A DNA stretch of 64,000 nt, taken from Deroplatys truncata (taxonomy: Eukaryota > Arthropoda > Insecta > Mantodea > Mantidae). The notes under the pieces are model-generated. The model did no database searches and was not told where the DNA came from. It worked only from the letters and a program-made list of their open reading frames with translations. Below, piece after piece: positions 33,913 to 56,797 of the stretch (position 1 is the stretch's first letter; each line of letters opens with the position of its first letter). The DNA is taken from the NCBI GenBank assembly GCA_030765065.1, contig CM060990.1, forward strand, positions 495,680,190 through 495,744,189, read 5' to 3'. The position numbers were made by a program, and so were the translations under genes.

Positions 33913-34028
33913 TGTTTTCCCCATATATATTCATTCCAATGCCTACCCTTCACTCAGTGCGGATCTAACGTCCGGAAACGCCAGACGTTTCGTGCCCAGC
34001 TCACACCTGCTCCTGCTGCACCGCGAAA

Positions 34029-35268: not shown

Positions 35269-35595
35269 TTTCTCAAAAAAGTACTTTTAAAGAACTATAC
35301 AGTGAGTGTTCACAGTGATTTATACACTCAAAAGTAGTCTTAAACAATATATTATCTTAATGTTTATTTTTCTTTCACATTCATTTTACTTATTATCTTA
35401 ATACCTGTAAACATTACCAATTTTATCAGTATGTGAAAATCTCTGTATTGAAAATAAATAAATTGTCCTATGTATCACGTAATAAATACTTATTACTTTT
35501 AATACCAGTAACCATCACCAATCTTATCATTTGTAATCATAAGCAACATAAGTTGTAAATCTCTGTATTTTTTAAAACTAAATTAAAGAAAATGT
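35269..35595. other. E1 right subterminal non-coding region
   Basis: AT-rich, with repeated phrases 'tattatcttaat' and 'accagtaa(c)cat(c)accaat(c)ttatca' near 35396-35430 and 35500-35530, and AATAAA near 35452. Confidence 0.5.
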
Positions 35596-35767
35596 CCCAG
35601 ATTAAGCAACAGATTAAGCTAATCCTACCGCTAGAGGCGTTTCAAATTTTTACCGCCAAACGTTAATCCACATTAATCCATTCGAATTAAGGAGGATTAC
35701 CATCGACACTAGCGCCCCTAGTGGCTGGATTAGGTTAATCTATTGCTTAATTTGGGGTTTTACTACT
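35596..35767 (-). repeat. Right terminal inverted repeat of E1
   Basis: The reverse complement begins AGTAGTAAAACCCC and follows the left repeat through 'GGGGCGCTAGTGTCG' to 'CTAGCGGTAGGATTA' and 'TTGCTTAATCTGGG'. Like the left copy it is palindromic within itself. It differs from the left copy at many positions, including an insertion of about 8 bp. Confidence 0.85.
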
Positions 35768-37708: not shown

Positions 37709-38309
37709 ACATTACTCACACTTCTCCTAAGGTTTAATTATGTTAGTATGTTTAGCGTCTCATTTGTGTTATTTTATTATATAGCAGAGTTCATTTATAT
37801 TTGCAATGTAAAGAAATATGTAGGCACCTATGTTTTATTTTTACAAACTTTAGATTTCCGCACCAGCAGAAATACAACAAGCGTTGAATAGAACAATAGT
37901 AAAGGTTATTGTACTGTGTGTTACATGTTCGTGGATAGTCTTTGTTAGTTGGCGTGCAAATAGGACACAAGTAACTGATGCTAGGGAAAGACCGAAATAG
38001 TTCCCAAACAGGATTTTTCGTCGTATTTTACCATGTGACTCCGAGTTGGCCAGTCAGGTTAACAGAACTTTATTAGTGTTTAAACGTAAAGTAAATTCGC
38101 ACCAGCTTGAGGATCAATAGAATTAGTTTGTAAGCTTCACACTCGCGCCTCTAAGAACTGCAAATATTTGAGCTGCCTGTCAAAATCTCAGGCATTTTGG
38201 TCTTAAAAACAGAAGAAACGTGTGCTCCTTGCAACAAGAGTTTCGTGCCGGAATTAATTTAAGAATGGAACGTAGTGTTTAGACATAGCCGCTCGAGTAA
38301 TATGTGGTA
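37709..38309 (+). repeat. 3' LTR of retroelement, left part
   Basis: It matches 11157-11746 in the same orientation with scattered differences, then stops at GTGGTA (38304-38309), where Polinton E2 begins. The rest resumes at 56357. Confidence 0.82.
38304..38309. repeat. Left 6-bp target duplication of Polinton E2
   Basis: GTGGTA, repeated at 56357-56362. The intact 5' LTR carries this sequence once (about 11741-11746), which proves the duplication. Confidence 0.95.
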
Positions 38310-38503
38310 AGTATTATATGCCCCACGGGAGGCAGACACCGCCAACAGGTTACTGGCGCCAAGGTAGAGGTATTCCCCCGTCCTTGAAACGTATGACTCA
38401 TTTGTTTCTTAGAAAAACTGATTTGTTTCTAAGAAAAGGGAATTCCCTTGACCCTGAGCTGAGTCAGTAAGCTGTTGCGGAGACCTGCCTCGCCGTGGGG
38501 TAT
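38310..38503 (+). repeat. Left terminal inverted repeat of E2, itself a long palindrome
   Basis: 194 bp. 'ATGCCCCACGGGAGGCAG' at 38318 pairs with 'CTGCCTCGCCGTGGGGTAT' ending at 38503, and 'TTTCTTAGAAA' lies near the centre, so each terminal repeat could fold into a long imperfect hairpin. About 95% identical to 56163-56356 reversed. Confidence 0.92.
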
Positions 38504-38625
38504 AATTAAAAAGAGGGAATTTTTGTTGACTTTTTGATTTTAGAGAAAGAAAAGCAATAATTAAAAAGAGGGAATTTTTTCGTTGACTTTTTAATTTTAG
38601 AGAAAGAAAAGAAATTTTTATGACG
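38504..38625. repeat. Two direct copies of a roughly 62-bp block inside the E2 left end
   Basis: 'aattaaaaagagggaattttt' through 'attttagagaaagaaaag' occurs twice in tandem. Confidence 0.8.
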
Positions 38626-38746
38626 AAAAAAACAAAAGTTATTTATTACGTAATGAATAGGTATTTAAGAAACCGGTTATAGTGTTTTTATATTAATAGT
38701 TTTGTATTAGCCGTGGTGCGAGAAAGAGAAACGCATAGGATAAAAA

Positions 38747-39966
38747 ATGTATGTGTTCATATTCACTTTCGAGTGCTAGCGAGGAAGATTTGAGGTCGAT
38801 GCTGATACGGGTCATTTACAGAACGCAACTATGTGTCGCAAGGATTATGAATTACTGTCAAATTGTTCTTGTATATATAAAAAGGATAGTGTATGTAAAT
38901 TTAACGCTAAATCTATGGATGTAAAAAGTATTAAAAATGTATATACGTGTCTAAAACCTGTAACAAAATGTCAGGCAGGAAGGAGATGTAGTCTAATGTA
39001 TTATAATAATATACCTGTTGGACAGGTACAGTGCCGGGATCCATGATGAATGAGGTTTGCGAGTGCGTTACGGCTCATGAAAATCAAGAGGGATGTAGCT
39101 TTCGGGGTACTTCCGTGAATATGATTGCAAACGATGATAAACTGGTATTGGTTGAAATGGTAGACTGTAGAGAACTGATTGATTTGTTTGATGTTCCAGA
39201 GGGCATTGGTCTTGATTGGAAGTTAACGTCAAAAGAAACAGAATTGATCACTGTATATACTATGATAGAAGATATGAATGCTTATTTTACAGATAATTAT
39301 ATATACGTTTTTGGAAATTGTGGGAATGGTGAATGGAAATTAAAGATAGGAAACAAAAGTGTTATAACGGGAAGGGTAAAAAGATCCGCATCTAGTTGGG
39401 CCGCTGAAGGTACGTTTAACATTAGATCAGAATGTGGTCAGGGGTCAACCGAATCTGGAGGGCGCATCTCCGTAGAGAGCTTAAGGAGAGCTGTGCTTGA
39501 AAAATGTAAGACTTCCGTTGTTAAGGATAAGCAAAAGCTTGTAAGGGAATGTAATGAAAAGACGAAAAATTTAAATCGAAAAATTAGTTTATTAACCGAA
39601 GAAAATAAAAGAATTAAAGAAGATTTGAAAAAATCGGGTGCCACGATAGCAGGTTTGAAGAGCGAATTGGAAGTTCGAAATCATAATTTATCTAAGCACA
39701 AGGATTTAGCTGACAGTATTAAAGGAAATGCACATCATATATACGATCAATTTCAAGAATTAAAAACTTTAATATCGAAGTTAACAAAAACGGGGGCGTG
39801 CACAGATGAGAAAAATGATGAGGAACCTGACATGTTTGTAAACTACGATCTTGAGGAATTAGAAGGAGAAGAAGAAAAGGAGATTGGAGATATTGGAGGA
39901 ACAAGAAATGAAGAGGAAAAGGAAGAAGTTGAAAAATACAGTGACGAATTTTCGTATACTACATAA
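38747..39966 (+). pseudogene. Secreted Cys-rich coiled-coil protein (E2 copy)
   Basis: Homologue of the first E1 gene. The ATG at 38747 opens a short hydrophobic start (MYVFIFTF) but meets TAG at 38777; the frame then continues with 'DTGHLQNAT' and Cys spacing as in E1 to 39046. After a frameshift near 39035 it runs unbroken for about 310 codons. That part holds further Cys, a 'GRVKRSASSW' furin-type site, a Lys/Glu/Asn coiled coil (about 39510-39780), a Cys pair region and an acidic tail (EEEKEEVEKY). No membrane segment is visible. Conservation of site, coiled coil and tail in two diverged elements argues for a real function, perhaps in the virion exterior; family unknown. Confidence 0.7.
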
Positions 39967-40002
39967 AAACTGATGCAAAGGGAACATAAAGAAAGCGGAA
40001 AT

Positions 40003-40370
40003 AAGGATTTTTTAAATACATAACAAAGAAAAAAGGTAATATATACATATATTTATTTATAATTTTGTTTTGGATGCCGCGACAACGGCCCACCTACTTC
40101 CATAAAAGTACAATAGGTGATGTTATGTTTGTAAAAAATTTGTAAGCTTTTTCATGTCTGTAAATTATTATAGTATTAAGTTGTAAGTAAGTTAAGTTTT
40201 TTAATTGTAGGAAGAATAAAAGGAAGAGAAGATAAGGATTTTTTAAATATATAACAAAGAAAAAAAGATAATATATATTTTTTATTCGTGGTTTTTTTTG
40301 GGCGACAATGGCCCACCCACATCCAGAAAAGTACAAGTGATGTTACGTTTACCCATTTCCAAAAAAAAGT
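40003..40370. repeat. Tandem duplication of about 230 bp between converging genes
   Basis: 'ggattttttaaata(c/t)ataacaaagaaaaaa' followed by 'cgacaa(c/t)ggcccacc(t/c)ac' and 'aaagtacaa...gtgatgtta' occurs near 40003 and 40235. It is non-coding and separates the rightward first gene from the leftward pair. Confidence 0.7.
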
Positions 40371-40455
40371 ACAAGTGATGTTATGTTTTTATATCTGTAC
40401 ATAATATTACATTATTAGGTTATAACTATGTGTTAGGTTTTCTTACTTTTCATGA

Positions 40456-40467
40456 TTATAAATTTTG

Positions 40468-40517
<50 letters not shown>

Positions 40518-41127
40518 CAGGACGTTTTTGCAGATCGTACGTTTGAACTATAAAGCTTTCTTTTAAGCTACCATTCATCATTAAGTCTTCCCAGTCAAAA
40601 TATTCTTTGTAGTCTTTAACAAAGCTTTCTGTACGTGGTTGAAATTTGGCTACATCAGGACGATATAAACTGTGAAAATATTTTCTTAACAATCCTTCCG
40701 ACAAAATTTGATTTTCGCACAAAGAGCCCCAACTTATATATTCCTCATATGGTTCTATTGCTTTTTCTGAGAAGTTTTGATATTCGCATAAATACATCCA
40801 GTCTAAATATTCCTTGAATTCAATTATAAATTTCTCATCCAAAGTTAAATATATAGAAATGGCTGACCAATTAAACTTTGTGTGAAATTTATGAATCACA
40901 CCAAAAGAAAATTTAATGCAAAACACTGATTTGTCTTTAACGACATTTGAAATTACATTTTCCAAAAATGAATACCTATATTTATCATCATATGTCATAT
41001 GATAATGATATAGATTGTCACACATACTAAACATATTGGTTAGTATTTGTTTGTTGATCTTTTCATGTTTTCCTAAGGAAATTTTGTCTACTACAATTTT
41101 CCTCACGCACAAATTTTGCAAATTCAT
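40456..41127 (-). CDS. Protein with repeated DW..LC..Q.LSE units (E2, leftward)
   Basis: A 223-codon open frame. From about residue 107 a motif recurs: 'YLDWMYLCEYQNFSEKAI', 'YISWGSLCENQILSEGLL' and a degenerate 'YFDWEDLMMNGSLKESFI'. Such 'DW..IS..Q.LSE.FI' repeats are familiar from giant-virus and phage proteins of unknown role. The N-terminal 100 residues show no motif. The last residues run into an (AT)n tract (Tyr-Ile repeat), so the true C-terminus is uncertain. The ATG at 41127 lies 29 nt behind the dUTPase stop, suggesting one leftward transcript. No E1 copy is visible. Confidence 0.6.
40470..40514. repeat. (AT)n microsatellite
   Basis: About 22 AT units at the 3' end of the leftward gene; it may have grown over the original stop codon. 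Confidence 0.95.
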
Positions 41128-41156
41128 TATGATTTTTTTTTGGTCGATCCAAATTT

Positions 41157-42045
41157 TTAATACCTCTTGAGGTAGTTATTTTTAATTTGTTTTGTTTGAG
41201 GCGTTTTTATCAAATGTACATTCAATTGTGCAATTGCGCAATATTTTTTAACAGAAATAATTTTATTGGAAAGGTTAAAGAGTATTACATTAATAGTATC
41301 AATGTAATCTTGGTCAATTACTCCGCCTAGTACTATTAAATTTTGTATTGCCGAACTCGACCGTGTAGCCAGTTTACCGTAAGTATCTTTAGGTAGTTTT
41401 ATGGAAATTTTTGCATCCACAATAGTGTTACTCCAAGGGAATATACTTACAGTTTTTGGTGCAAATATATCATACCCTGAGGAGTTGTACCTTCGAATTG
41501 GTGCTTTAGCAGATTGACTATGGACGAAATATAACAATTTATCACTGGTGTCTTCTTCTTCTTCTGAGTCACTGTCTTTTATTATTATTACATTGTCATG
41601 CTGTCGTGGCTGAATATCTGCTTCTTGACGTGAAGATATGCTCGGCTGCTGTTGCGACTGTTGCGGCGGAACGTCTTCTTCTGAATGCTGTTGCGGATGG
41701 ACGTCTGCTTCTGAATGCTGTTGCGGCAGGACGCCTTTTTCTGAATGCTGTTGCGGCAGGACGTCTTCTTCTCAATGCTGTTGCAGCAGAACGCCTTCTT
41801 CTGAATGCTGTTGCAGCAGAACGCCTTCTTCTGAATGTTGTTGTGGCTTGTCTTCTTCTTTCTGCTTTTGTGGTTCTTCAAGACTTTTTGCAAGATTTTC
41901 TAATTCTCCAAAAAGTATATTTTCAAACAGATTGTGAAAACACATGGCATTCGCAGTTTTCACAAGTACATAAACAATTGCCAATTAATTGTTTATTTTC
42001 ATTGGAACAGAACTCATTGTACTTCTCTGGATGTTGTTGTGCCAT
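41157..42045 (-). pseudogene. dut: dUTPase with Gln/Glu-rich N-terminal extension (E2, leftward), broken
   Basis: dUTPase hydrolyses dUTP to dUMP and keeps uracil out of DNA. The conserved blocks are in order: 'SSGYDIFAP' (motif 1), 'TRSSSA' (motif 2, usually RSG/RSS), 'GGVIDQDYID' (motif 3) and 'CAIAQL' (motif 4). The glycine-rich motif 5 is missing; the frame ends 'NNYLKRY'. Upstream the same frame carries repeats of 'QQHSEE(G/D)V(L/P)', broken by a TGA near 41775, and before that a frameshift near 41930 leads to a Cys-rich start (MAQQHPEKY, ATG at 42045). TATAAAA lies 29 nt upstream on the minus strand. Missing motif 5 and the two breaks indicate loss of function. Confidence 0.8.
41640..41840. 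repeat. Array of 36-bp coding repeats in the dUTPase extension
   Basis: Five or six copies of '(t/c)gaatg(c/t)tgttgc(g/a)gcaggacg(c/t)c(t)tcttct' encoding QQHSEE units on the minus strand. Confidence 0.85.
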
Positions 42046-42570
42046 TGTGCTCTCAAAGTAGCCATCACTTGTGTTTTATACTGCATATGATTTAAAAAAG
42101 CGACAGGTTAAGAGGATAACTTGTGTAGTTAAGTGTCAAGGATGAATTGATGCAACTCATGTTATATAATTTGTTTATTCTATTGGGTAAAAAGTTTTGA
42201 AACTTGGAGTACTGCATAGTTAAATGTCAAGGATAAATTGATGCAATTCACGTTATATAAGTTGTTGTTGTATTGAGTACAACTTGCAGCGCCACAAGGG
42301 CATGACTATCCCAATGCAGCTTGCTAAGGATAGATTAGTGCAAGAGCATTTGGTAGGGGAAGTACTAAGAGCAAGGCCATGTTATATAAGTTGTTCTGTT
42401 GAGAGGAAAACACGAAGCGCAACTTGGCACGTGCTGACATAAGGAAAATACTGCAAGGACAAATTAAATTAAATGTCAAGGATAAATCATGAGTATAAAT
42501 TAAGCCAGCGTGCACGCTTTAATGCAGGAGGAAGAGAAGAACATATAATCTTACTGAACACGTTAATACA
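42046..42570. promoter_or_regulatory. E2 divergent promoter region with three repeated blocks
   Basis: It lies between the leftward dUTPase and rightward polymerase genes. TATAAAA is on the minus strand at 42074-42080 and TATAAAT on the plus strand at 42494-42500. Between them a block 'gtcaaggat(g/a)aattgatgcaa(c/t)tca(t/c)gttatata' occurs near 42137 and 42228, with a weaker third copy near 42322-42395 and a fragment at 42475. The blocks could bind a shared regulator of early genes. Confidence 0.6.
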
Positions 42571-45500
42571 ATGAAATATTTTTCAATTTTAAATTACAGA
42601 CAATGAACATTAGATAAATTTTACTCAGGATATACAGAATCTAGTATATTAGTAGATACAATAAATACAAACGAAAATGATGAAGAAGATGAAATCGATC
42701 CGATGGAGTGGGTACATTTAATATTTAAAGAGTTTTTAGAATTTGCTAATCGAGAATTGTTACATTATAATCCTAGTTATTTTGGCATGTCTGTGACCAA
42801 TTCGCAGGACCCCCCTAAAAGTTTTGATATAAGCCTTAGAAGATTTGATCAGATTAACATTGAGACAATTCTAAAATCTTTGGAAAGGGTTGTTCAAAGT
42901 AACCAAAGCTTTTTCTTACATGGACCGATAAAATTTTCATGTGTTTATACAAAAATACATACAGAAAATTGCTTTAGCGCTTGTCAAATGTGTAGCCAAA
43001 ATAAGGGTATGATAGCTATAGAAAATGATGACTTTTTATGTCTTCCTAGGTCGATTGCTGTAGCAATTGCCAAAATTGATAACGATAAAAATTATGCTTC
43101 TATAAAAAGATGCAATAAAAAGCAAACAGAACAAGCAATGAATCTGTGCAATCTCGTAAATAAAAATACAGGATTCACAGTAAACGACGTGGTTTGTTTT
43201 GAAAAGCATTTAAAAGACAGATCATGATGGCAAAAACATTTTGTATACATCTGCAATAAACAGTAACAAACATATAGATTTGCTACATCATAATAATCAC
43301 TTTAGCGTAATCGTGGACGTACACAGAGCATTTAAATGTAAATATTACTGCAGACAGTGTAATTCACAGTTTAAATATAAAAAAGAGAAACATCGCTGCG
43401 ATTTTTCCTGTTCAAAATGTCATCTTCAATGTAATAATACATTTGATAGATTTGTATATTGCCAAAACTGTAATCGTGATTTTAAAGGACAACTTTGTTA
43501 TGAAAATCACTTAAAGAAAGGTGTCTTTTATCCAGGAAAAATATCTGTCTGTGACACAGAAATGGTTTGTAATAATTGTTGTAAGTTATACAATTTAAGA
43601 AAAAGAAAAGTAGATCATGTCTGTGGTGATATGTTTTGTTGTGTGTGTAAAAATATGTAGCATCCAATCATTTATGTTGTATTCAACCATACAAGAACAA
43701 ACAATTAAGGAAAAGCTTCATAATATTTTTTATTGATTTCGAGTGCACTCAGGAAAAAATATTTAACTTACAAAACGATAAGCTTGAACACGAACCAAAT
43801 CTCTGTGTTCTTTATCAGGCCTGTGATGAATGTATTGATACTTATACAAAATTGGAAGTTTGTCACAAGTGCGGTGTAAAGGAATGGATATTTAAAAAAG
43901 ATCCCGTACGTGAGTTAATAGAATATATTACACTACCACGTACAATACTTAGAGATATAACCGTTATTGCACACAATCTCAAATTTTATGACGGCCATAT
44001 TCTGCTTAAGTATATGGTTGGTACACTAGGTTGGTCACCCGAATTAATTATGAATGGTACTAGGATATATAGAATAAAGTACAAAAATATAACGTTTATA
44101 GATTCTTTAAATTTTATACCAATATCTTTGGCTAGATTTTCAAAAACATTTCAATTACAAGAAACAAAAGGCTATTTTCCATATCTATTCAATTCAAAAG
44201 AAAATGAAAATTATGTTGGAAATATGCCGGATCGCAAATACTATTGTCCTGAAGGAATGTCAATAGAAGAACGAAAAGAGTTTGAAAAGTGGTATATCGA
44301 AAAAGAAAAATCTAGTTATAAGTATGATACGCAAAAAGAACTTGTAGATTATTGTCGAATGGATGTACAGTTATTATGTTTTGGCGCTTCTAAATTTAGA
44401 AAGGAATTCATAGATGAAAACAGTATTGATCCTTTTAGGGAATGTGTGACAATAACTAATGTTTGCATGAACGTATACAGAAAACGTTTTAAGCCTGTAG
44501 ATACAATTTCAGTATTGCCATTAGGAGGATATCGGTTAGAGGACAAACAGTCGCGTGTAGCACTAATCTGGCTTACCTGGTTAGAGAAAAAAGAAGGTAT
44601 TTTAATACAACATGCATTGAATGGTAGAGAAATAAAAATTTTATATCATAAAGTTGATGGATATAGTGAGGATGATAAAATCGTTTACTTTTTTCATGGA
44701 TGTTTTTACCATGGTTGCTTAAAATGCTTTACAGATAGATCTTCATATATTTACGATTCGTACTATGAAACTATGAATTCTAGATACGAAGCAACCTAGA
44801 GAATCACAAATGAAATAAAAAAAGCTTCGTGTAATGTTGTGGAATTATGGGAATGTGAATTTAAATCCATGATAGAAACTGACGAAGATCTCGAAAATTA
44901 TGTAAATAATTTTTCTTCTACTCTTCCTGAACCTCTCGAACCGAGAGATGCATTTTACGGTGGGCGAACAAATTGTATCAAGTTATATTATGAACTACAA
45001 GAAAATGAAAAGATATTTTACTATGATGTATGTAGTCTATATCCTTTTGTTAACAAAACCAAACCATATCCTGTTGGTCATCCAAAAATATACTACGAGG
45101 AAAATAAGTTTCCCGATTTACATCTCATCAAAGGACGACTTATAAAATGTGAGATTTTACCACCCACCGACGTCTATCATCCGGCACTACCGTTACGTGT
45201 GAATGGAAAATTGATGTTTCCTTTATGTAATAGTTGTGCACAAGCAGAAAATCAAGCAACAAGCAATCATACCGATGAAGAAAGATGCTTAAATGGTACG
45301 TGGGTGTTGGATGAGGTTAAAGTCGCTATTAATGAAGGATATAAAAATTTTTTAAATTTTTGAAATTTGGGAATATCAAATGGCACAATACGATTCTAAA
45401 AAGAAAGAACACGGACTTTTAGAAAAATATGTTAATCAGTTTTTAAAAATAAAAGCATAAGCGTCGGGATGGCCGTCAGAGTGTAACACTGAGGAGAAAA

Positions 45501-46340
45501 AAACAGTGTGTTGCTAGTTTTGAAGAAAACGAAGGAATTAAATCAGATACTGATAAGATATCTTTTAATCCAGGTAGACGTGAATTAAGTAAATTGATGC
45601 TTAACTCGTTTTGGGGAAAATATGGACAAAGAGATAATTTACCGACAACGGAATTGGTGACAGAATATTCTCGTCTTGTTGAACTTTTAAACAATCCAAG
45701 TGTAGAGGTTCACACATATCTTCCAGCAACAGACGACATAATTTATGTTGTTTAGAGCCATGTTAAGGAAAGTCCTAAATAAATCCTACTACTAACGTAG
45801 TTATTGCTGCTTACACTACGGCCCATGCTCGTCTTGAGCTTTACTCCTATCTTAAGAAATTAAAGGAGCACGTACTGTATTTTGATACGGATTCCGTTAT
45901 AGTAACACATAGACCAGGAGACTGGCTACCGCCTATAGGATCCTTTCTTGGATGTATGACGAACGAATTAGAAAAATATGGCAGGAATGCTTATATAGAT
46001 AAATTTGTTTCAAGTGGCCCAAAAAGCTATGCATTCAGAATAAAATTTAGAGAAAATACAAAAATAACGTAAAATTAAAGGCATTACATTAAATTCTGGA
46101 AATCTAGAAAAAATTAACGAAAGTGTAATGACAAATATTATATTAAATGATAACAGTATGAAGATTACACTACGTAGTACTCAGATATCTAGAAAACCTT
46201 TATGGACTTTAGTGACAGAGCCATCCATTAAAACTTTTCGTTTAGTAGTAAATAAACGAAAAAGAGTTTCAAGTTTTGATACAGTACCCTGTGGATTGAA
46301 AAAAGAACACGTAAGTAACATTTTAATTAAATTGTGGTGA
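42571..46340 (+). pseudogene. polB: Protein-primed family B DNA polymerase (E2), broken
   Basis: The motifs are all present: 'FIDFECTQ' (Exo I, near 43730), 'AHNLKFYDG' (Exo II, near 43975), 'YCRMDVQ' (Exo III, near 44350), 'YDVCSLYP' (motif A, near 45025), 'MLNSFWGK' (motif B, near 45597), 'YFDTDSVI' (motif C with DTDS, 45884-45895). An N-terminal Cys/His-rich region (43330-43660) probably binds zinc. Start at ATG 42571: an in-frame TGA at 42604 precedes 'YSGYTESS', which matches E1. Further breaks: frameshift near 43225, break near 43660-43735, TAG at 44797, frameshift near 45355, TAG near 45755, frameshift near 46070. It ends at TGA 46340. Catalytic Asp residues are kept, unlike E1. Confidence 0.93.
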
Positions 46341-46371
46341 CAAAGTTGTAGTACCTTCAGTAGTGGAAAAA

Positions 46372-47979
46372 ATGTCTTCAGAATCAGACGATGATTCCAC
46401 AGGATATACTTTAGACAGTTTATCTAACGTGGAACCTCTACGTTTACCTTCTAAGCGTAAATCCGATCAAGAAATGTTATTTTTTAAAAAAAGGTTCCTA
46501 ATTTAGCTATTTTGAATGAACCAAGCAAACGTAATATGGATTCGAAATATTCTTTTTTTAATAAAGTTCCTAAATTATCAATATTAAACAAAACAAGTAA
46601 AATTCGAAGAAGTGATGGAGATCAGATTTTGGGCTCTAAACTGTTTAATCCAAATGCATCCGATTTTATTAACCTTCTCTTTGATTCAGGTTCTGAAGAT
46701 AGCGGTGTATCAATGCACAGAAAAGATTTAAAAAGAAACATTAACGCACTTTTTGATAATAAGCAAAATAAAAGATATAAATTAAACAAAGAAAAAGGTA
46801 TAACACAAAATTTAGAGTTGGGTACGACTTATCAACTGCGTAATCCTAAATTAGAAAAGTCAAAAGGAACACAAAACAAAGGAATAAACCTTACAAATCA
46901 GATAATGTTTTTTCAACAAAGTTGGATTGACAAAAATTTTAAAAGAAGTAAAAGCCCACTTCAAGAAAAAGAAGAAGCCGTCGATGAACATTTTAAAAAA
47001 CTTAAGAAGGTTAACGTTAACACGAAAGATATATCTCGAGAAGTTGTAGATGAAAATTTTAAAAACTTTAAAAAGGTTAATACTGGACAAACCGTAGAAA
47101 TGAAAGATCTATCTCAAGGAGAAGTCGTAGATGAAAATTTTAAAAAATTTAAAAAAGTCAATACAGGTCAAACCGTAGAAATAAAATATCTATCTCAAGG
47201 AGAAGTTATCGATGATAATTTCAACAAATTTAAAAAAGTCAATTCTGGTAAAGAAGTGGAAATGAAAGACTTATCGTCCTCTAATTTAGATGACCTAGAA
47301 AATGAAATACCTTCGGAAACAGTGGATCCTAAAATAACCAAGTTTATATTTCCTAGCACGATGCAAGTTGGAGGTCCCTCGCGTAGCGGTAAATCTACGT
47401 TTGTTAGAAATTTATTAAAAATGCTGATAAATTATTTAACGAACCTATAAAAAGATGCTTATGCTGTCATCCTTCCGAATATCCACCTCCTCCTAACACT
47501 GAACGTGAATTTAACAATTGTACGTTTAATGTACGAATGCATGAAGGAGTGCCAGATTTAGAATAGGTGAAAAACGGTGATATGGTAGTACTACACGATC
47601 TAATGTATGAAACAGAAAATAATAACGTATCGAAACTTTTTACCAAAGATTAACATCATAAAAATTTTGGTGTAATTTATATATTACAAAATATTTTTCC
47701 ACAAGGTAAAAAATTTAGATCTATCTCGCTTAATTCAAATTATATTGTTGTATTTAAAACAATAGAGATAAGTTACAAGTAGATAGATAATTTCAGCAGC
47801 TTGAGCCGAGAAGTTCGAAATTTTTGTTAGAAGCATTTGAAAAGGCTACTGAAAAACCACACGGTTATCTAGTGTTAGACTGTACACAACAAACTCCTGA
47901 CAAATTTCGTTACGGAACAGGAGTATTACCTGACGAAGCGTTGTCGTTTTTTATTTCTAAAAAGAAAAATGGCACCTAA
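46372..47979 (+). pseudogene. Packaging ATPase with repetitive N-terminal extension (E2), broken
   Basis: ATG 46372 opens an acidic Ser-rich start; after a frameshift near 46500, a frame of 313 codons leads to 'GGPSRSGKSTFVRNLL' (Walker A, near 47370). Before it are four tandem units of 27 residues containing 'VDENFK(K/N)FKKVNTGQTVE'. Following a frameshift near 47430 come 'HPSEYPPPP', Walker B-like 'GDMVVLHDLMYE', and the C-terminal 'EPRSSKFLLEAFEKA...GYLVLDC' block. Stops at about 47563 and 47651 and a frameshift near 47760 break it. E1 lacks the extension. The last codons overlap gene X by 11 nt. Confidence 0.82.
47000..47290 (+). repeat. 81-bp coding repeats in the E2 ATPase extension
   Basis: Units beginning 'gatgaaaattttaaaaa(a/c)tttaaaaa(a/g)gt(c/t)aat' near 46984, 47049, 47130 and 47211; the last three are exactly 81 bp apart. 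Confidence 0.85.
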
Positions 47980-48344
47980 ATTATCTCCAAAAGTTTTTAA
48001 AAAGTTTGCAAATTATCTTCCCCCACAGTTGCAAAACAGTGCGGTAATCTAGCAGTTCTCAGCAAAGCGAGACCCAAGTTACGTAAAAAACATTTAAGCG
48101 AGGCCAATCCAGAATTAGTAAAAGCTATTTCCGAATATGTATTAAACATTAGTAACCGTAAAGTACCGATTTGTAATAAGTGTAAAATAGCTTAAAAAGT
48201 ATAAAAAATTGTGGAGAAGGCTAGTAGATAAAACATCTTTAAAAAAAGAAAAACATAATTATACAAAAAGGAGGATTTCTACCTTCGTTCATACTGCCAG
48301 TATTGGGTGCATTAGGAAGTGCTCTAGTATCCAAATTTGTTTAA
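47969..48344 (+). pseudogene. Short basic protein X with Gly-Gly hydrophobic tail (E2)
   Basis: ATG 47969 (MAPKLSPKVFKKF) overlaps the ATPase stop. After a frameshift near 48050 the conserved middle 'SEANPELVKAISEYVLNI' appears, then 'LWRRLVDKTSLKKE', and in another frame the tail 'IIQKGGFLPSFILPVLG' to TAA 48342-48344. It has the same layout as the E1 copy. The hydrophobic Gly-Gly-Phe-Leu-Pro tail is the best conserved part. A core or membrane-active virion protein is an inference from similar adintovirus proteins. Confidence 0.65.
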
Positions 48345-48348
48345 AATC

Positions 48349-48788
48349 ATGAAATACGGAAAACAAATTATGTTACTTTACCCACAACCTGAAAGTTTGA
48401 AAAAATTAATGTAATTGACAGAAGTTTAGAAAATTTATCTAGCGACATTGAAGCTATACAAAGCCGAGCTATGACGCCCGATGAAAAATGGAAATTACTT
48501 AAATATAAATTAATAAATTATCACGATATTGTGTCAAAACTTCGAAAGCCTTACATACAATCACAGGAAGAATTATGGAAAGAATCAAACAAAAAGAAGA
48601 GGAAGAAGATAATTTCAAAAGCGACTGGGAAACCGATCAACCTAAAACGAAAATTAAAAAAATTACAACAAAAAATAAAATAAAAAATACAGCATCAACA
48701 AAAAAAATAAAAAACTGAACCTGTTCATGATATAAGATATAAACCTTATAACTTATGTTCTACTAAATCAAAATGGCAGAAGCCTTAA
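48349..48788 (+). pseudogene. Small basic protein Y (E2)
   Basis: It starts MKYGKQI at 48349, four nt behind X. A frameshift near 48410 leads to 'NVIDRSLENLSSDIEA' and 'DEKWKLLKYKLINY', which aligns with E1 'DDK.RLKIVLANY'. A Lys-rich tail follows, broken again near 48680, and the gene ends 'SKWQKP' at 48786-48788, overlapping the integrase ATG (48773) by 16 nt. Unknown function; conserved position in both elements. Confidence 0.6.
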
Positions 48789-49855
48789 CCGAAAGAGATA
48801 AAACAATACTTAATAAATACTATTCTAAACTTGATCATTATGCCGGTCTTGGGAGTATTAATAAACTTCGCAAGACTACAGGAATTTCTAAGCAAAAAAT
48901 AAATAAATATTTACAGGGAGAAGACAGCTACACTTTTCATAAATACGTAAGAAAACGGTTTCCTACCAAACAACATCACGTTACCAACATCGATGATTTG
49001 TGGGAAAGTGACTTAAATGTGCTGAATAGCATTAAAAACTACAATAAACCTTATATCTATATTTTAACTAGTATCGATGTCTGTTCTAAATATGCATGGG
49101 CACTACCTTTAAAATCCAAAGCGGGAAATGAAATTGTTAGAGCTTTTCATTATATATTTAAGCAGTATAAACGTGCTCCAAAAATTTTACAGACGGATAA
49201 AGGTACAGAATTTACTAATAAACAATTTCAATCCTTTTTAAAAAATCGTGAAATCATTCATTAAACTACGAAAAATAATGTAAAAGCTAGCGTAGTAGAA
49301 AGATTCAATAGAACACTAAACGAACAAATGTGGAAATACTTTACGTATAAAAATACTTACAAATATACGGATGTATTACCTAATTATTAAAATCTTATAA
49401 TAGTCGTATCACAGATGAATAAAATTGGCACCTATAGAGTAAAAGAAACTAATATTATGTTAGTTTATGAGAATTTTTATGGAAAGAATTTGCGTACAAA
49501 AAGTGTATTTAAACCACAAAAATATAAAACAGGTGATCGTGTTCGTATATCTAAACCAGAAATGAAATTTGATAAAGGCTATGGACAAAATTGGACGGAT
49601 GAAATATTTAAAATTAGAAAAGTAATAAAAGACATGCCGGTTGTATACAAGCTGGAAGATTAAACTGGAAAAGATTTAGATGGTATATTTTACACAGAAG
49701 AAATACAAAAGGTACAACCTCAATCAATCTTTAAGATAGATAAAATTTTAGACGAAAGAGGTAAAGGAATCAGTAAAGAAGTACTAGTTAAGTGGAAAGG
49801 ATATCCTGCAAAGTTTAATTCCTGAATAAAACAATCAGATATAATAGCGCAATGA
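48773..49855 (+). pseudogene. int: Retroviral-type integrase with chromodomain (E2), broken
   Basis: The first 163 codons are open. 'HYAGLGSINKLRKTTGIS' is the Polinton-type N-terminus; then 'RKRFPTKQHHVTNIDDLWES'. Catalytic residues: Asp in 'WESDLNVL', Asp in 'LQTDKGTEF', Glu in 'VVERFNRTL'. TAA at 49262 replaces a Lys codon seen in E1. Further frameshifts lie near 49390 and 49415, TAA near 49661, and TGA near 49825 inside the chromodomain ('VLVKWKGYPAKFNS'), where a Trp codon is expected. Its final TGA (49853-49855) overlaps the next ATG at 49852. Confidence 0.92.
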
Positions 49856-50821
49856 TACGAAGAGAACCTTTTACCATTACGCTTACCAGTAATGGATCTA
49901 TGAACCACTTTAAAAATAACACTACATCGGGCTTTTGCAACATGCTACCCCAGCGAACGGTGTTGCTAGGAGAATGGGAAGTTGCTCTAACCAAAATAAG
50001 ATATCCCGGAATGTTTATTAATATTACAAAGAGTGATAATTTTTTAAAATGAGATCGAATACACGTAACAAAAACTGGAATTAGTACGTACAGTTTTCGT
50101 TACGACTTAGGAGAATCTACAATTACTGATAATGTAATGCTTTTAAATGAAGTTAATCGCATATTAGAAAAAAATGCATCTGTTAAAACTTTTTTAAATA
50201 CAACTCAAACACTGGATTTGTAAGCATTAATCCGGAAGCAATAGATAAAAGCGAATCAATTGGAGATACAAAACCAAAGAAACGAGGAGACAACGAGCAA
50301 GGAGACTCGAAACCAAAGAAGCGAGACACTGTCCAAGATACTTCAACTTCGAAAACTAAAAAGCAAGAAGTAACTAAATCAGATGAATCAGCAACAGTTC
50401 AATTGGATGAAACAAGGACGAATAAACATTACATTTGTAACTTGTATTTGTCACCCAATTTAAACAGACAGCTAGGTTTCAATTTTGGAACCAACGTGGC
50501 TAAAACTACACGTGCATCGTATCCTATGAATCTATACCTAACATTTCCTTACGACATAATTGTTTATCGTAACTTAGTACATCCTCAAATGGTTAGCGAT
50601 ACATTTGCTCAGATAATTGAAAGGACAACAGTAGATCTAAATATCGACAATAAAAATTTAGCAGTGGAAAAACATTCTTTCCTCAAAATTGGGTATCTTT
50701 ACTTCAACACGATTTTAACATTACAAAAATAGATTTAAGAACAGGTACAGGGGAATTTTTACCATTTGTAGACGGTTTTTCCTCAGCCGTTGTACTTTCA
50801 TTTAGACCAAAAAAGAGATGA
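49852..50821 (+). pseudogene. Candidate minor capsid (penton-like) protein (E2), broken
   Basis: It begins MIRREPFTITL. 'NGSMNHFKNNTTSGF' and 'GEWEVALTKIRYP' match E1. A TGA at about 50051 and frameshifts follow; a charged linker rich in 'KPKKR' repeats (50270-50400) corresponds to the Pro-rich linker of E1. The second conserved part, 'YICNLYLSPNLNRQLGFNFG', is at 50430-50480, and the gene ends 'LSFRPKKR' with TGA 50819-50821. The linker differs completely from E1 in composition while both flanking domains are conserved. Overlaps the next gene as ATGA. Confidence 0.55.
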
Positions 50822-51174
50822 GTCATCACGAACTTGCTAAATATTTTTTAAACCAAACAGGGAGAGGTGTGAAGAAAATACAAATTTTGTATTATATAGA
50901 AGAAAACGTTTTCAAAGGGGTTACGGCCTTTTTGGTGCACTTAAAGGATTATGGAGGTTCATGTCTCCAATTTTTAAAAGTGCTGCAAAAACTGTAGGTA
51001 AGGAAGCTGTTAACGTAGGTGCAAGTGTTTTAACGGACGTGTTAACAAGCAGAAAGCAATTAAAAAAACTCGCTTAATGAAAGATTAAAGGAAAGTACTG
51101 AAAATATCAAGAAAAAGGCTGATAAATTTATAGATACCATGTTAGGATTTGGAATAAAACCACATAAAAAATAA
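50818..51174 (+). pseudogene. Core/pVI-like basic amphipathic protein (E2)
   Basis: It starts 'MSHHELAKYFLNQTG', like 'QYYLNQVGG' in E1. Broken frames then give a Gly-rich amphipathic part, 'KSAAKTVGKEAVNVG' (about 50978-51022), and a Lys-rich helix with 'KADKFIDTMLGFG' near 51115-51152, ending at TAA 51172-51174. At least two frameshifts. Unlike E1, where the stop touches the capsid ATG, 84 nt separate it from the capsid start. Confidence 0.6.
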
Positions 51175-51258
51175 AACTGGTTCATTCTACAGTTAAGCCG
51201 CACCACAAAAGCAATAAAAGAAGAAAAAGAAGAAAAACAGATATACTTACTTAATACC

Positions 51259-52545
51259 ATGTCGAATATTTACACGCATTCAGCATTTAAAATGTTTGAC
51301 GATCAACCGATACAAACTGGAGTAGACAGTACAAATATTATCGAACGTGTTACGCAAAATGCTATATCGTATAATTCCCCGTTAATATTTCACTACGCAG
51401 GAAACGCAGATACTTATTTGGATCTTTCATACATGGTATTACGTTTACGTTGTAAAATAGTAAAAGAAGATGGTAAAAATTTCACACCATCTGCTGTCGA
51501 TGTTCCTGTTACTGAAAAATCTACGATTGTTAATAATTCCTTAAATTCTATTTTTCAACATATTGAAGTTATTTTAAATAATGTTACAGTATCTCAACCT
51601 CAACCGGGATATCCGTACAAATCATATTTCCAAACTTTGTTAAACTATTCTACAGATGCTATGGAAACATGGCTTCAATCATCACTTTGGAAATTAGACG
51701 ATCCTGATAAAATGAAGGATATAGAAGGAAACAGTGGTTTAAAATGGAGATACGATATTACAAAGGAAAGTAAGGAGTTTGAAATGATGGGTTGCTTATA
51801 CAGTGAAATACGTAATCAAGATAAATTTCTATTAAATAACATATCCATAACTATTAAGCTAACTCTTTCAACTCCGGAATTTCACCTTATTGGAAAAGGA
51901 AAAACTATAATAACTTCCGCTACATTATCTCTTAAGCGTATATATCCATCGCCCACTATTCTCCTAGCCCATCAAGAGGCGCTGACAAAAAGTAGTGCAA
52001 AGTATCACTTAATTGGAGTAGATTTTCAGCCGTTTAATATCCCAAAAGGGACTATAAGCAAAAGCATAAACGACATTTTTGTAGGTAAAGTAGCACGCAG
52101 AATCATAATAGCTTTTACTACAAATAAAGCATTTAGCGGTGCATTCGATGAAAACCCATACAACTTGAAACATTTTAATATGAATTTTTGTCAATTAATC
52201 ATTAATGGACAACCAATACCTTTGAAACCACTGACTCCGGATTTCGAAGGAAGAAAATATTTACGATGCTATCAGACATTAAAAGATGGCTTAGGCATTC
52301 TTTGCGATGACCGAGGACATTCCATTCCTCTAGATAATTATGCAAAAGGATATACTATATTAGTTTTTGATTTAACAGCAGATATGAGCGCTAACGAACC
52401 ATATATTTTAGGTCTGCAGCACGGAAATGTTTCTATAAATGTAGCCTTCAAAAACGCTTTAACTGAACCGGTAACTATGCTTGTTTGCTCAGAATATCAA
52501 AAACTTTTAGAAATAGACGTAAACAGATCTATCTACATATCATAA
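51259..52545 (+). CDS. mcp: Major capsid protein, double jelly-roll type, intact (E2)
   Basis: 428 codons with no stop or frameshift, the longest intact gene in either element. Shared blocks with E1: 'LIFHYAGNADTYLDLSY', 'NSLNSIFQHIEVILNNVTV', 'YPYKSYFQTLLNYS', 'SPTILLAHQEALTKSSAKYH', 'NPYNLKHFNMNFCQLIING', 'LTADMSANEPYILG'. These match the hexon-like Polinton/adintovirus capsid family. By hand count about half of its leucine codons (21 of 42) are TTA. The start is MSNIYTHSAF; the TAA overlaps the protease ATG as TAATG (52543-52547). Confidence 0.93.
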   Translation: MSNIYTHSAFKMFDDQPIQTGVDSTNIIERVTQNAISYNSPLIFHYAGNADTYLDLSYMVLRLRCKIVKEDGKNFTPSAVDVPVTEKSTIVNNSLNSIFQHIEVILNNVTVSQPQPGYPYKSYFQTLLNYSTDAMETWLQSSLWKLDDPDKMKDIEGNSGLKWRYDITKESKEFEMMGCLYSEIRNQDKFLLNNISITIKLTLSTPEFHLIGKGKTIITSATLSLKRIYPSPTILLAHQEALTKSSAKYHLIGVDFQPFNIPKGTISKSINDIFVGKVARRIIIAFTTNKAFSGAFDENPYNLKHFNMNFCQLIINGQPIPLKPLTPDFEGRKYLRCYQTLKDGLGILCDDRGHSIPLDNYAKGYTILVFDLTADMSANEPYILGLQHGNVSINVAFKNALTEPVTMLVCSEYQKLLEIDVNRSIYIS

Positions 52546-53059
52546 TGGATACTAATCAAATACATAAATTTTTATACAATAATCCGCATACTTGTCCGCA
52601 CCTTATTGGAGCATTTGCACGTGATCAAATACCTAAAAACAGACATTTAAATTTCCCATTGCAATGGTAATAAATACTGACCCTAGCAACAAACCAGGTC
52701 AACATTGGATATGCATATTTATATCTAAATCCGGTATAGGAGAATATTTTGATAGTTTCGGACATACTCCTCTGTATTCAAATATTTTAAACTTTTTGCA
52801 ATATCAATGTGGAAAAAACTGGGAATATAATAAACGACGATTGCAAAGTTCTTATAGCTCAACTTGTGGACATTACGTCGTTGCATATCTTCTTCATCGA
52901 TGTTGTAACTTACAAAAAAATATTTTTTTTTCAAAGTTTAAAATTAAAGATTTTAAATATAACGACAATGTGATCCCTAAGATTATATGCTCTTCTCAAA
53001 CACCCTGCAAAAATAGAGGAGTTTCATATCAAATATGCAAACCAATAAAACGTGAGTAA
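52545..53059 (+). pseudogene. pro: Adenain-like cysteine protease (E2), one frameshift
   Basis: The N-terminal part (52545-52670) reads MDTNQIHKFLY; a frameshift near 52660 leads to the catalytic part. His is in 'GQHWICI', the acidic residue in 'EYFDSFG', Cys in 'YSSTCGHYVVAYL'. The C-terminal part ends 'YQICKPIKRE' at TGA-free TAA 53057-53059. A donor-like AAC/GTGAGT at about 53050 and an acceptor-like 'tttcattatag' ending at 53101 suggest splicing at the same place as in E1. Confidence 0.82.
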
Positions 53060-53105
53060 ATTGTATCTTTACATTCATTTTCTTTTTATTTTTCATTATA
53101 GAAAC

Positions 53106-53711
53106 ATGTCAACGGGTGCAGGTTTTATATATTTTAATTTTTTAATTGACAATGAACGTGAATACGTAGTTAAAGAACTTTCTATATGTGGTTTAAATCA
53201 TGAGGTTCAGACGTGGATATTCCTTCCTCCTTACGAACGCAACATATTAAAAGAATTGGTTAAATCGACCAATGACAGAATTACTGCAAAAGTACACGGA
53301 TTAAAATGGGAAGACGGTGATGTAAAATATAATTTACTGTCATCCATCTTAAAGAGGTGCGTGGATAGATTTACTGTAGTATTTACAAAAGGCGAAGAAA
53401 AAGCCAAATTTCTTCGAGCACTAACTGGAAGTACCATAATAAATATAGATTAAATAGAGCCTTATCAAGAGGCGTTTGCTACATTTAACGCAAATCCTTG
53501 TATGCATCCTTGCCATAAAATACCTATTCTTAATTGTTCTCAAAGAAATGCTATTAATATTTCCATGTGGTACTCACACGTAGTTAATAGACGTGACGCT
53601 TATCCCTGCGATCCTAAACCAAACGAATCGCGTCTCCCCTCCGATTTGAACCACGATGCAATGAATTTTAAATCTAGCATTTACGATGTGTATATTAATG
53701 ATCTGTTTTAG
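53106..53711 (+). pseudogene. RNase H-fold-like protein of the 'GL.W..GDV.Y' family (E2)
   Basis: ATG 53106. 'EYVVKELSICG', 'WIFLPPYERNIL', 'HGLKWEDGDVKYNLLSSIL' and 'FTVVFTKGEEKAKFLRAL' follow the order of a small exonuclease-like (RNase H-fold) family that I have seen in invertebrate transposons and viruses; I am not certain of its biochemical role. A TAA at 53451 interrupts the frame, which continues with 'CMHPCHKIPILNCSQRNAI', a Cys/His cluster, to 53711. No counterpart is visible in E1 between protease and the next gene. Alternatively an unrelated structural protein. Confidence 0.5.
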
Positions 53712-53816
53712 AATGCACATCTCAGTAATCAAACGTTAGAGGCAGGAACAGGATATCAGACCAGGTGCTAAAAAAAGATGTAGGTATATACAATTGAATT
53801 GTTCTTAAAAAATCAT

Positions 53817-53900
53817 GTCAGATTGGCCGAGTGGTTAAGGCGTCGTACTTAAGATACGATTCTCTTTAAAGAGAGCGTGGGTTCAAATCCCACATCTGAC
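53817..53900 (+). tRNA. tRNA-Leu (UAA anticodon) inside Polinton E2
   Basis: 84 nt. Acceptor arms GTCAGAT and ATCTGAC pair fully. The D arm is GCC...GGC. The anticodon stem TCGTA/TACGA encloses loop CTTAAGA with anticodon TAA. A long variable arm (TCTCT..AGAGA) marks a class II tRNA, as expected for Leu. The T arm GTGGG/CCCAC encloses TTCAAAT. The A box (TGGCCGAGTGG) and B box (GGTTCAAATCC) are consensus, no intron is present, and a T6 run at 53902 would end Pol III transcription. CCA is not encoded, as in nuclear tRNA genes. It lies between the RNase H-fold-like gene and an acceptor-like site at 53922. Confidence 0.95.
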
Positions 53901-53922
53901 ATTTTTTATTTCATTTTTTCAG

Positions 53923-54611
53923 GTCTACAGATATAACAAAGCTGAAGTTGAGCAGTGATGAAGATGAAATTAAATCCGCATCTAAACCTGATTCATCACT
54001 AATTGGAATCCAAAGCAACATTTACTTCCTCGATCATGGCCAAAAAAATTCTATGTATAGGATTTTCGCCAGAATTTCCATACGATTTACGGATTACCAT
54101 TTCCAAATGTGGTGAACATCGTGGTATATTGCTATATGACTTGAACGAATGGAAAAATTTAATTCATTGTATAAATTGCATTGATACCGGTTCCAAGAAA
54201 GAAAATTTTAAATGGAAATGCAATTTAACAGAAGAATTACATTTAGATATAAAATACGTATTTGGTACACAAAATGTGATTTTAAAACAATATCAAGGGG
54301 ATGAGCAGGTCTCCCTATCATTAATTGAAGAAGAATGGACAAATATATCCAAACTTTATCCGGTCATAAACGATATATTCTATCACAAATTAAAGGAATC
54401 TAAAGAAGTAAAGAATCTTATACTGGCATACTGCAATTACATAAAATACACAGCAGAATCGTCAGAAGATACGAGTAACATGTCTTACTGGCGCTTCACC
54501 GAGTACATGATATGCGTCACACCAAGAATTTACCACGAGATACGTTTCTTTCTTCACAAACAACTAGTCACGTGTAACGAAAAATGTGATGAAACAACTA
54601 GTCACGTGTAA
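53923..54611 (+). CDS. Unidentified conserved protein (E2 relative of the two-exon E1 gene)
   Basis: An acceptor-like 'cattttttcag' ends at 53922. A frame from there carries 'SLIGIQSNIYFLDHG', matching E1 'DPLSNIYFLNAQQ'. It shifts to the frame of 54003, which gives 'ILCIGFSPEFPYDLRITISKCG', 'LNEWKNLIHCI' and continues open to TAA 54609-54611. The last 50 residues hold 'YWRFTEYMICVTPRIYHEI', similar to the separate 57-codon ORF of E1. The tRNA-Leu would lie in the 5' intron or leader. Function unknown; PC4-like single-stranded DNA binding is a weak possibility. The stop and next start overlap as TAATG. Confidence 0.5.
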
Positions 54612-54877
54612 TGCTACCATATAAAAGTGTCATGCAAGAACATAACACATCGTCATTCGACGCCGCCGCCGCAGTAAACAAGATGCTGGAAGAACTTAAT
54701 GAAATGGGTAAAGAATCAAAACCTCTAACCACAGGAGAGTTAACACAAAATAAAAACTATTTAATTGAAGAAGCTTGTTCCGTTCAAACCAAATACGGAA
54801 AGAGAACAATAATAAAAATTAATGGAAGAGATTTTCTCTGTCATCGAGATTCAACGAAACCTCAGGAGAAAGTTTAA
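54611..54877 (+). CDS. Small transposon protein of the 'KYG' type (E2)
   Basis: 88 codons from ATG 54611 to TAA 54877, then the reading continues in another frame with a Leu/Tyr-rich end near 54890-54948. 'LTQNKNYLIEEACSVQTKYGKRTIIKINGRD' carries the 'V.TKYG..(I/V)' block shared with E1 (34441-34747). Ala-rich and charged N-terminus. The 'FLP.R' block of E1 reads 'FLCHR' here. Role unknown. Confidence 0.5.
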   Translation: MLPYKSVMQEHNTSSFDAAAAVNKMLEELNEMGKESKPLTTGELTQNKNYLIEEACSVQTKYGKRTIIKINGRDFLCHRDSTKPQEKV

Positions 54878-55176
54878 GATTATTAAATAAAAAAGAGTAC
54901 TGCTTGGTTTACAAAGGAGATGCCTACGCATTCGTCAAAATGGAATAAAAAAGGTGAGTAAGCAATGAAAAAAACCATTACTATAGTCATGCAGCTCGAT
55001 AGTATATTGTTAACTTATATGTCAATAATATTGCTATAATTCACCTGTATCACTTTTTGCATTTTAAAATTACATAAACTTAAATACACATGTGCTTCTT
55101 GCAATACATGTGCAGAGAAAAAGACAGAGACCGCATAAATAACAAGGTAGATTTTAAATATTGTTCACTTATCATT

Positions 55177-55807
55177 ATGTCTGTCACGTCGGAGCCTATC
55201 TATCTAGGAAACAACGCTTTTGCAAGAATAACAATTAATCAGGAATTTCTTGTTAATACTTGTGGTTGATATCAAAATCTAGATACATTTAAAATTTTAT
55301 CTACTTCCATCACACAATGTGAAAAAACTAAAAGTGTTGAAATCAAAGTGGGTAAACACTCTGAATACCACGAATTGCAAAGAACAAGATATATTTAATG
55401 TATATTTTACACTTTCTAGATTGGATCCGAAGGCAGAAGATGCCAGAGTAAAAGTAAAAAGTAACGGACGATGCATAGATCAACTTCTAACACGACAAGG
55501 AAACCTCAACGTGTTAAAAGAAGAAGACAGCGATCAACATGTGCTGGTAGGTGCTCTGTTTTTTCCGAAGATTCATCAAAAAATTCATAACAACTTTCAC
55601 CACCTTGGATATCTGATAGAAAGCAGAGAACTGGAAGAAGAAAAAGACAGAGACAGAAACGCTCGAAAACTTTTGTGTAATAGTGATTCGGCATATGCAT
55701 CGAAAGAAAAAGAAGAAGAAGAAAAAGGAAGAGACGTGTGCGGAACTTATAATTCATTGTTTTCAACAATAATTAAATTAACATTTTTTAACATTGATAA
55801 ACAATAA
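55177..55807 (+). pseudogene. Last gene of E2, start-related to the last gene of E1
   Basis: ATG 55177 gives MSVTSEPIYLGNN, aligned with MSCETEPIHIGNN of E1. A TGA lies at about 55268 and a frameshift at about 55320, after which 55319-55807 is open for 162 codons. That part contains acidic/basic clusters (ELEEEKDRDRN, KEKEEEEKGRD) near its end. The function is unknown. It is the last gene before the terminal region. Confidence 0.45.
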
Positions 55808-55844
55808 GTTCAGTAACATTTTTTCATATCTGTAAACATCTTTT

Positions 55845-56075
55845 TATTGTCAAGAAAATGTTTATCCTGTTTTAATTAATTATTGTCATATATCACTTAT
55901 ATATTATTTAATTGTAATTAAACTTTTTATTGTCAAGGAAAAATTAATTATTGTCATATATCACTTATATATATTATTTAATTGTAATTAAACTTTTTAT
56001 TGTCAAGAAAATATTAATCCTGTTTTAATTAATTATTGTTGTATATCAATTATATATTATTACTGTATTCAATTA
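55845..56075. repeat. Three tandem copies of a 70-80-bp AT-rich block in the E2 right end
   Basis: 'ttattgtcaag(a/g)aaa...taattattgtcatatatcacttatatat(at)tatttaattgtaattaaactt' starts near 55847, 55928 and 55998. Confidence 0.85.
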
Positions 56076-56162
56076 TTTAATTAAAATTACTTTTATTGTT
56101 ATTAAATTTTATACCATATTGAAATTATTTTTGATGTAACCAAAAAAGAATTACAATAAAAA

Positions 56163-56356
56163 ATGCCCCACGGCGAGGCAGGTCTCCGCAACAGGTTACT
56201 GACTCAGATCAAGGTCAAGGGAATACCCTTTTCTTAGAAACAAATCAGTTTTTCTAAGAAACAAGTGAGTCATACGTTTCAAGGACGGGGGAATACCTCT
56301 ACCTTGGCGCCAGTAACCTGTTGGTGGTGTCTACCTCCCGTGGGGCATATACTACT
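56163..56356 (-). repeat. Right terminal inverted repeat of E2
   Basis: Reverse complement of 38310-38503 with roughly ten differences; the same internal palindrome is present. Confidence 0.92.
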
Positions 56357-56797
56357 GTGGTAAAAGTGACAAGAAATTCGCGGAGAGAGTAACTTAACAT
56401 GCAGAAGTCTTGTTATTCGCTGTTAGACAAGTGATTAAGTTGTGCGCTGGTTGAAGTCGAAATGTAGCCATGAACTTTGTTTAAGACATAATATTAAAGT
56501 TTGGTTGTTGGTTTCCTGATTCAACACGGAACAATAAAAAGAAAAATGTGCGTTGAATTTAATATGCTGTGTCGTCTACAGTTATTTTATTAGCCAGTTG
56601 ACCCTTTACGTATCACGCCCTGGAAATCAATGAAAACATTTTTATACCACAAACGTAATTACAACAGGTATTCGAACCCAGACAACAAGATCTTCCGTGA
56701 ACAGCCGAGGTGAATGAGCAAAACGTCATAAGGAGGTGACCGACGGTCTGCATTCTCTAGGTAAATATAAACCAAGATAAAGGAGGACGCAACATAA
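56357..56797 (+). repeat. 3' LTR of retroelement, right part
   Basis: It starts with the duplicated GTGGTA and follows the 5' LTR from about 11741 to its end ('ggtaaatataaac' and 'gacgcaa(c)ataa'). Together with 37709-38309 it gives about 1.04 kb, as long as the 5' LTR. Confidence 0.85.

Follow-up and report, generated by a model that had tools for sequence, protein, structure and literature searches.

The window, that is, the whole analysed stretch of 64,000 nucleotides, carries an intact-looking tRNA-Leu(TAA) gene inside a Polinton, here called E2. The gene holds a fixed position in two Polinton families and was found in many separate insertions; it is conserved, and compensated changes are present in its stems. 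The explanation judged best is that a tRNA-Leu(UAA) gene was captured by a Polinton ancestor and kept as a gene of the element, where it would supply translation, and we regard this account as probable.

ARAGORN, applied to the 64-kb window, predicted a single tRNA, a tRNA-Leu with the anticodon TAA at 53816-53902 on the plus strand. The Rfam model RF00005 matched 53817-53901 over its full length (model positions 1-71 of 71) with 63.2 bits (E 2.3e-11, cut-off 29), and zero non-standard pairs were marked in the alignment. The folding energy of the tRNA strand was 3.55 standard deviations below that of dinucleotide shuffles, and 0 of 200 shuffles were as good. The gene, placed here at 53817..53901 (+), has a long variable arm (class II) as well as A and B boxes. 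Directly 3' of it follows a T6 run (53902..53907, +), a candidate Pol III terminator recognized in the sequence and in the alignment of 40 copies, which merges into a pyrimidine tract before the AG at 53921-53922. The claim of the earlier note that this is a complete tRNA-Leu(UAA) gene with paired arms, a TAA anticodon and a following T6 was thus confirmed, and the gene is regarded as real.

From the boxes and the variable arm, we take the tRNA to be of the eukaryotic cytosolic type. A mitochondrial or bacterial origin was judged unlikely, as the long variable arm and the eukaryotic-type D-arm presumably speak against it. The D-arm/anticodon motif CGAGTGGTTAAGGC-N5-ACTTAAGAT had zero exact matches in the viral and prokaryote sequence collections, and strict tRNA patterns likewise had zero matches in the viral contig collection, although one of these patterns was an N too long for this tRNA. 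An origin as a SINE or a retroposed tRNA was rejected, since neither CCA, nor an A-tail, nor a clear short flanking duplication was present; the good ARAGORN and Rfam scores also speak against the earlier concern that the gene might be a pseudogene or SINE-derived. A 10-bp inverted match to the B box at 53643 was taken as chance.

The host element E2 (38310..56356, +) is 18,047 bp long and was delimited by its inverted repeats, its AG...CT ends and its genes. The inverted repeats, at 38310-38503 and 56163-56356, measure 194 bp and are 95% complementary, and the element is flanked by a perfect 6-bp target duplication, GTGGTA, at 38304..38309 on the left and 56357..56362 on the right. With the ends located in this way, the tRNA lies well inside E2, among element genes and 2.4 kb from the right end, as had been stated beforehand.

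Several E2 genes are broken in the window copy. The family B DNA polymerase was recognized in a fragment of one such gene (Pfam PF03175, E 1.4e-26) and has relatives in Pyrocoelia, Photinus and Araneus. The rve integrase (PF00665, E 1.5e-13) and, on the minus strand at 41160-41771, a dUTPase (E 4.8e-23) were also recognized by Pfam. Ahead of the dUTPase gene, and in frame with it, lies a 30-nt unit repeated seven times (41628-41867), and three in-frame 81-nt repeats (47038-47280) lie within the ORF ending at the ATPase-position gene. The capsid gene (51259..52545, +) is intact in the window copy and has 35 homologues, with named relatives in Colias, Fopius, Diachasmimorpha and Liolophura; its protein has no Pfam match and no solved relative by sequence, and the name is taken from its position in the family. 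Relatives of this protein in the viral contig and genome contig collections were not confirmed.

The ATPase- and protease-position genes lie where the packaging ATPase and the cysteine protease of a Polinton would be expected and have homologues in the neighbouring element E1, with no Pfam match above the cut-off. The second of these (52664..53059, +), which we assume to encode a protease, is 51% identical to E1 31707-32039. It is followed by ORFx (53106..53711, +), situated directly upstream of the tRNA and interrupted by one in-frame stop in the window copy, for which no homologues were found in the protein collection, Pfam or PHROGs. ORFy (54045..54608, +), the gene whose apparent intron contains the tRNA, is 26% identical to E1 32504-33004; its frame is shifted near 54040 in the window copy, and its identity in related families is 80-84% and 53-55%.

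Polinton E1 (17797..35767, +), with the target duplication CACTTA, is collinear with E2 in the polymerase, integrase, capsid, protease-position and ORFy genes, and a match to ORFx was not found in it. The absence of the tRNA from E1, noted earlier, also held: neither a tRNA nor a remnant of one was detected, and the two E1 matches listed by Rfam at E<=10 were not tRNAs. The same absence was observed over the 2.2 kb that follow the protease-position gene in 8 of 8 E1-type elements (of 150 rows listed). Between the protease-position gene and ORFy, at 32103-32370, E1 has GT-AG intron signs, and splicing in this region may therefore be old.

Copies of E2 were searched for in the genome of 4.29 Gb. 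With a 211-bp query around the tRNA, the best 40 of 146 candidates comprised the window and 39 others, at 90-96% identity, and each of the 39 can be aligned with E2 to the left and to the right of the tRNA. ARAGORN predicted a tRNA in 39 of the 39, with the anticodon TAA in 35 of them (not TAA in L022, L026, L040 and L047). The right end was recognizable in 37 of these copies, and the 37 flanks beyond it were all different. A later insertion of the tRNA into a single copy is ruled out by this common position in copies at different insertion sites, and the suggestion that other members of the family might lack the tRNA was contradicted by the fetched copies, all 39 of which have it at the same place. 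The tRNA was therefore present before the E2-family copies spread.

Because the 211-bp query included the tRNA, the search was repeated with a tRNA-free query, 52300-52700, from which the best 40 of 626 candidates were taken (41 rows, 40 loci including the window). By coordinates, 38 of the 40 loci have the tRNA, two of these at a distance of 5-7 kb, as if displaced by insertions. At locus L049 the tRNA is decayed by several changes and rejected by ARAGORN, and locus L048 has a deletion that removes 53182-54346. A capsid-protein query gave the tRNA in all 37 E2-family loci listed (35 by coordinates, 2 fetched with tRNA-Leu(TAA)).

Some features of the copies themselves were also observed. Half of the E2-family places (20 of 40) are on C16, which makes up 707 of the 4290 Mb (binomial p 1e-6); C16 might be a sex chromosome, or a region where insertions are lost slowly. 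Seven loci (L017-L020, L022, L024 and L027) share 94-97% with E2 as far as 54600, but only about 65-75% from there to near the right end (54600-56000), as though elements had swapped this right-hand part. In several Polinton families of this genome, numerous near-identical copies have an open frame for the capsid or the protease-position gene, which suggests recent spread.

Related families were distinguished with the capsid query, which yielded 99 rows (best 98 scored of 3470 candidates). By identity, 38 rows belong to the E2 family, 42 lie at 69-72% (the 72% family) and 19 at 56-57% (the 57% family). The stretch behind the capsid gene was fetched for 7 of the 42 and 7 of the 19. A tRNA-Leu(TAA) is situated between ORFx and ORFy in 7 of 7 fetched copies of the 57% family, and it is absent from 7 of 7 fetched copies of the 72% family, where ORFx and ORFy are present. 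With the 57%-family tRNA as query (best 40 of 240 places), the tRNA was located at the common position in 18 of 19 loci of that family, 17 by coordinates and L062 among the fetched copies. At the 19th locus, L072 (C16:346635200-346636900), an insert of about 98 bases that includes an A-run interrupts the anticodon arm of the tRNA. In the simplest history, the tRNA was captured once, prior to the split of the E2, 72% and 57% families, and was lost in the 72% family; exchange of the tRNA between families is a possible alternative.

Conservation of the tRNA was evaluated within the E2 family and between families. Letter-identical tRNAs are present in 19 of 40 E2-family copies, and the mean pairwise divergence over the 40 copies was 3.1% in the tRNA vs 4.3-8.0% in six neighbouring blocks. 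When the copies were sorted by eye into five groups, near-fixed differences between the ten group pairs numbered 0 in the tRNA everywhere and from 0 to 28 in the flanks. The uncorrected Fisher p values were 0.023 for A-C, 0.023 for B-C and 0.036 for C-E, and exceeded 0.2 in the other 7 of 10 pairs, so the support from this within-family test is modest.

For covariation, 14 chosen tRNAs were aligned, 8 of them distinct and three taken from decayed E2-family copies. In this alignment, 98.5% of the cells pair, and in four pairs both bases have changed. None of 500 shuffles came up to the alignment in pairing percentage or in covariation score, and structures slid by 1-3 columns pair at 31-50%; the count of doubly changed pairs was not above that of the shuffles, 294 of 500 of which attained it. 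The acceptor stem does not vary, three anticodon-stem pairs differ between families, and the anticodon is TAA both in E2 and in seven 57%-family copies.

The tRNA is enclosed by an apparent 144-nt GT-AG intron (53779..53922, +), and its end lies 21 nt before the AG. The borders in the copies read GAT/GTAAGT ... tRNA ... CAG/GTCTACAG; of the 40 copies, 35 have GTAAGT and 39 have the AG, and the window copy has GTAGGT at the 5' border. Removal of 53779-53922 would form an ATG from 53777-53778 and 53923 (GAT/GT...AG/GTC, read by eye), and the unspliced sequence reads ATG TAA in 34 of 40 copies. Both related families have a similar intron-like stretch at this point in the gene. In the 57% family it measures 126-132 nt and includes the tRNA (2 loci measured), and the ATG of that family is in the first exon and not across the junction; in the 72% family it measures 88-100 nt and lacks the tRNA (three loci measured).

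Such an arrangement could be a dual-use module, in which one T-rich tract both ends Pol III transcription and acts as the pyrimidine tract, so that use by Pol III and splicing of the Pol II transcript compete. We put this forward tentatively and consider it doubtful. If it were true, tRNA supply would be tied to the expression of the adjoining ORFy in animal Polintons.

Codon use was compared between elements with and without the tRNA. The count given in the earlier note for the E2 capsid gene, in which 21 of 42 leucines are encoded by TTA, was correct. Its proposal that the tRNA suits the codon bias of the element fared less well as an explanation. Over 19 E2 segments, TTA accounted for 119 of 284 leucines, or 42% vs 36% expected from base composition, and this small excess speaks against a role in supplying translation. 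In four ORFs of the families with the tRNA, TTA encodes 16-18 of 41-49 leucines (35-41%) at a GC3 of 0.27-0.31, while in those of the 72% family, without the tRNA, it encodes 14-20 of 37-43 at a GC3 of 0.21-0.24, corresponding to 49-51% in 6 of 7 copies and 33% in one. The presence of the tRNA was thus not associated with stronger TTA use in the four ORFs, contrary to what codon compensation implies, and the explanation of the tRNA by codon bias is weak. As the 72% family lacks the tRNA and most of its copies are richer in TTA, the tRNA appears dispensable, and its presence does not follow from codon use.

On the favoured account, an ancestor of these animal Polintons would have gained a cytosolic-type tRNA-Leu(UAA) gene, and the element would have retained it as its own. 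The gene sits in a short apparent intron that interrupts ORFy at its 5' end and comes after the capsid and protease genes. RNA polymerase III would most likely transcribe it from the internal A and B boxes, and the T-run, also part of the intron pyrimidine tract, would stop the polymerase. The resulting tRNA would accept leucine and would read UUA, and by wobble UUG, during synthesis of the element proteins. Transcription, splicing, charging and a benefit to translation are all presumed here.

Other explanations have to be weighed against this account. The tRNA could be a passenger, captured once from a host and since copied along idly, which we hold to be unlikely. Many copies are young (group C copies differ by 0.15% in the 5' flank, and since insertion of the window copy about 2 changes would be expected over 85 nt), so that an idle tRNA would also look intact, and the absence from the 72% family agrees with this reading. 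However, E2 and the 57% family have 72 of 85 tRNA positions in common (85%), vs 65.5-68.4% in longer alignments over adjoining coding DNA that include the tRNA; paired changes occur in the tRNA and its anticodon is retained. The compensated stem changes already strain the idea of idle copying. A quite improbable account is that the folded tRNA, or its transcription by Pol III, matters mainly for the splicing of the ORFy intron and thereby for the creation of the start codon. It draws on the well-kept intron borders, the short distance to the AG and the common intron position in two families, but the 72% family, in the three loci measured, retains an intron without the tRNA, which is therefore not needed for it, and the kept anticodon is left unexplained.

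Comparably low in probability is the idea that the tRNA answers the cutting or depletion of tRNAs by the host during infection, with the element supplying a diverged tRNA-Leu(UAA) that escapes. This idea is known for viral tRNAs and, in the available text of PMC12220804, is proposed for polinton-like viruses (PLVs); the differences between families in the anticodon stem and variable arm, with the identity parts kept, speak for it, and it is compatible with a tRNA presence uncorrelated with codon bias. A host tRNA-Leu(UAA) for comparison was not identified by motif searches: an animal motif had 0 genome matches at 0 and at 2 mismatches, and a looser pattern gave one site, inside a tandem tRNA-Ser array. 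That array (L073 1-3024, near C11:57072765) comprises 12 tRNA-Ser genes in 3 kb, with one further unit reading Leu(TAA). A use of the promoter only is very improbable; here TFIIIC, recruited by the A and B boxes, would provide an insulator or a start site, and the tRNA as such would go unused. The boxes are indeed kept, yet so are the acceptor stem, the anticodon and the compensated variable arm, none of which the boxes alone would need.

Giant virus and phage tRNAs are thought to match codon use. In the available text of PMC12220804, these tRNAs are cited in that sense, and codon compensation and a response to tRNA depletion are proposed for the tRNAs of PLVs. Giant virus and phage tRNAs differ from the present case, as the D-arm/anticodon motif described above had no exact counterpart in the viral or prokaryote collections. 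Related families with and without the tRNA in one genome offer a natural comparison, by which the idea of codon compensation becomes testable; it fits poorly here.

The earlier note knew of no standard description of a tRNA in Polintons. For animal Polintons and adintoviruses this stands, in that no report was found in a search of mostly openly accessible literature, and the word tRNA is absent from the main text, as available, of PMC8363768, PMC10120064, PMC11071308, PMC8097293 and PMC3671162. It does not extend to polinton-like viruses and virophages, for which tRNAs are already described in the accessible parts of PMC12220804 and PMC6905037. The first of these reports 558 tRNAs in PLV and virophage genomes (n = 8300), including one leucine tRNA in a cryptophyte PLV. 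The PLVs differ in being protist elements, with seven His tRNAs in one cluster, and neither intron nesting nor compensated changes between families are described for them in that text.

Virophages resemble E2 as small integrating dsDNA elements that carry tRNA genes (PMC6905037, PMC10741620), and the set in the available text of PMC6905037 includes Leu with the anticodon TAA in two clades. They differ in being protist-associated and metagenomic, and are described in these texts without a fixed intron position or conservation between families. E2 also resembles the animal Polintons/Mavericks and adintoviruses, whose gene content and ends, according to the accessible text of PMC8363768 and PMC8097293, are as in E2, and animal Polintons are suspected in the latter to be integrated viruses. 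The retention of an intact-looking tRNA gene in two families, within an apparent intron close to the capsid and protease genes, suggests that at some stage translation or the supply of tRNA is important to animal Polintons.
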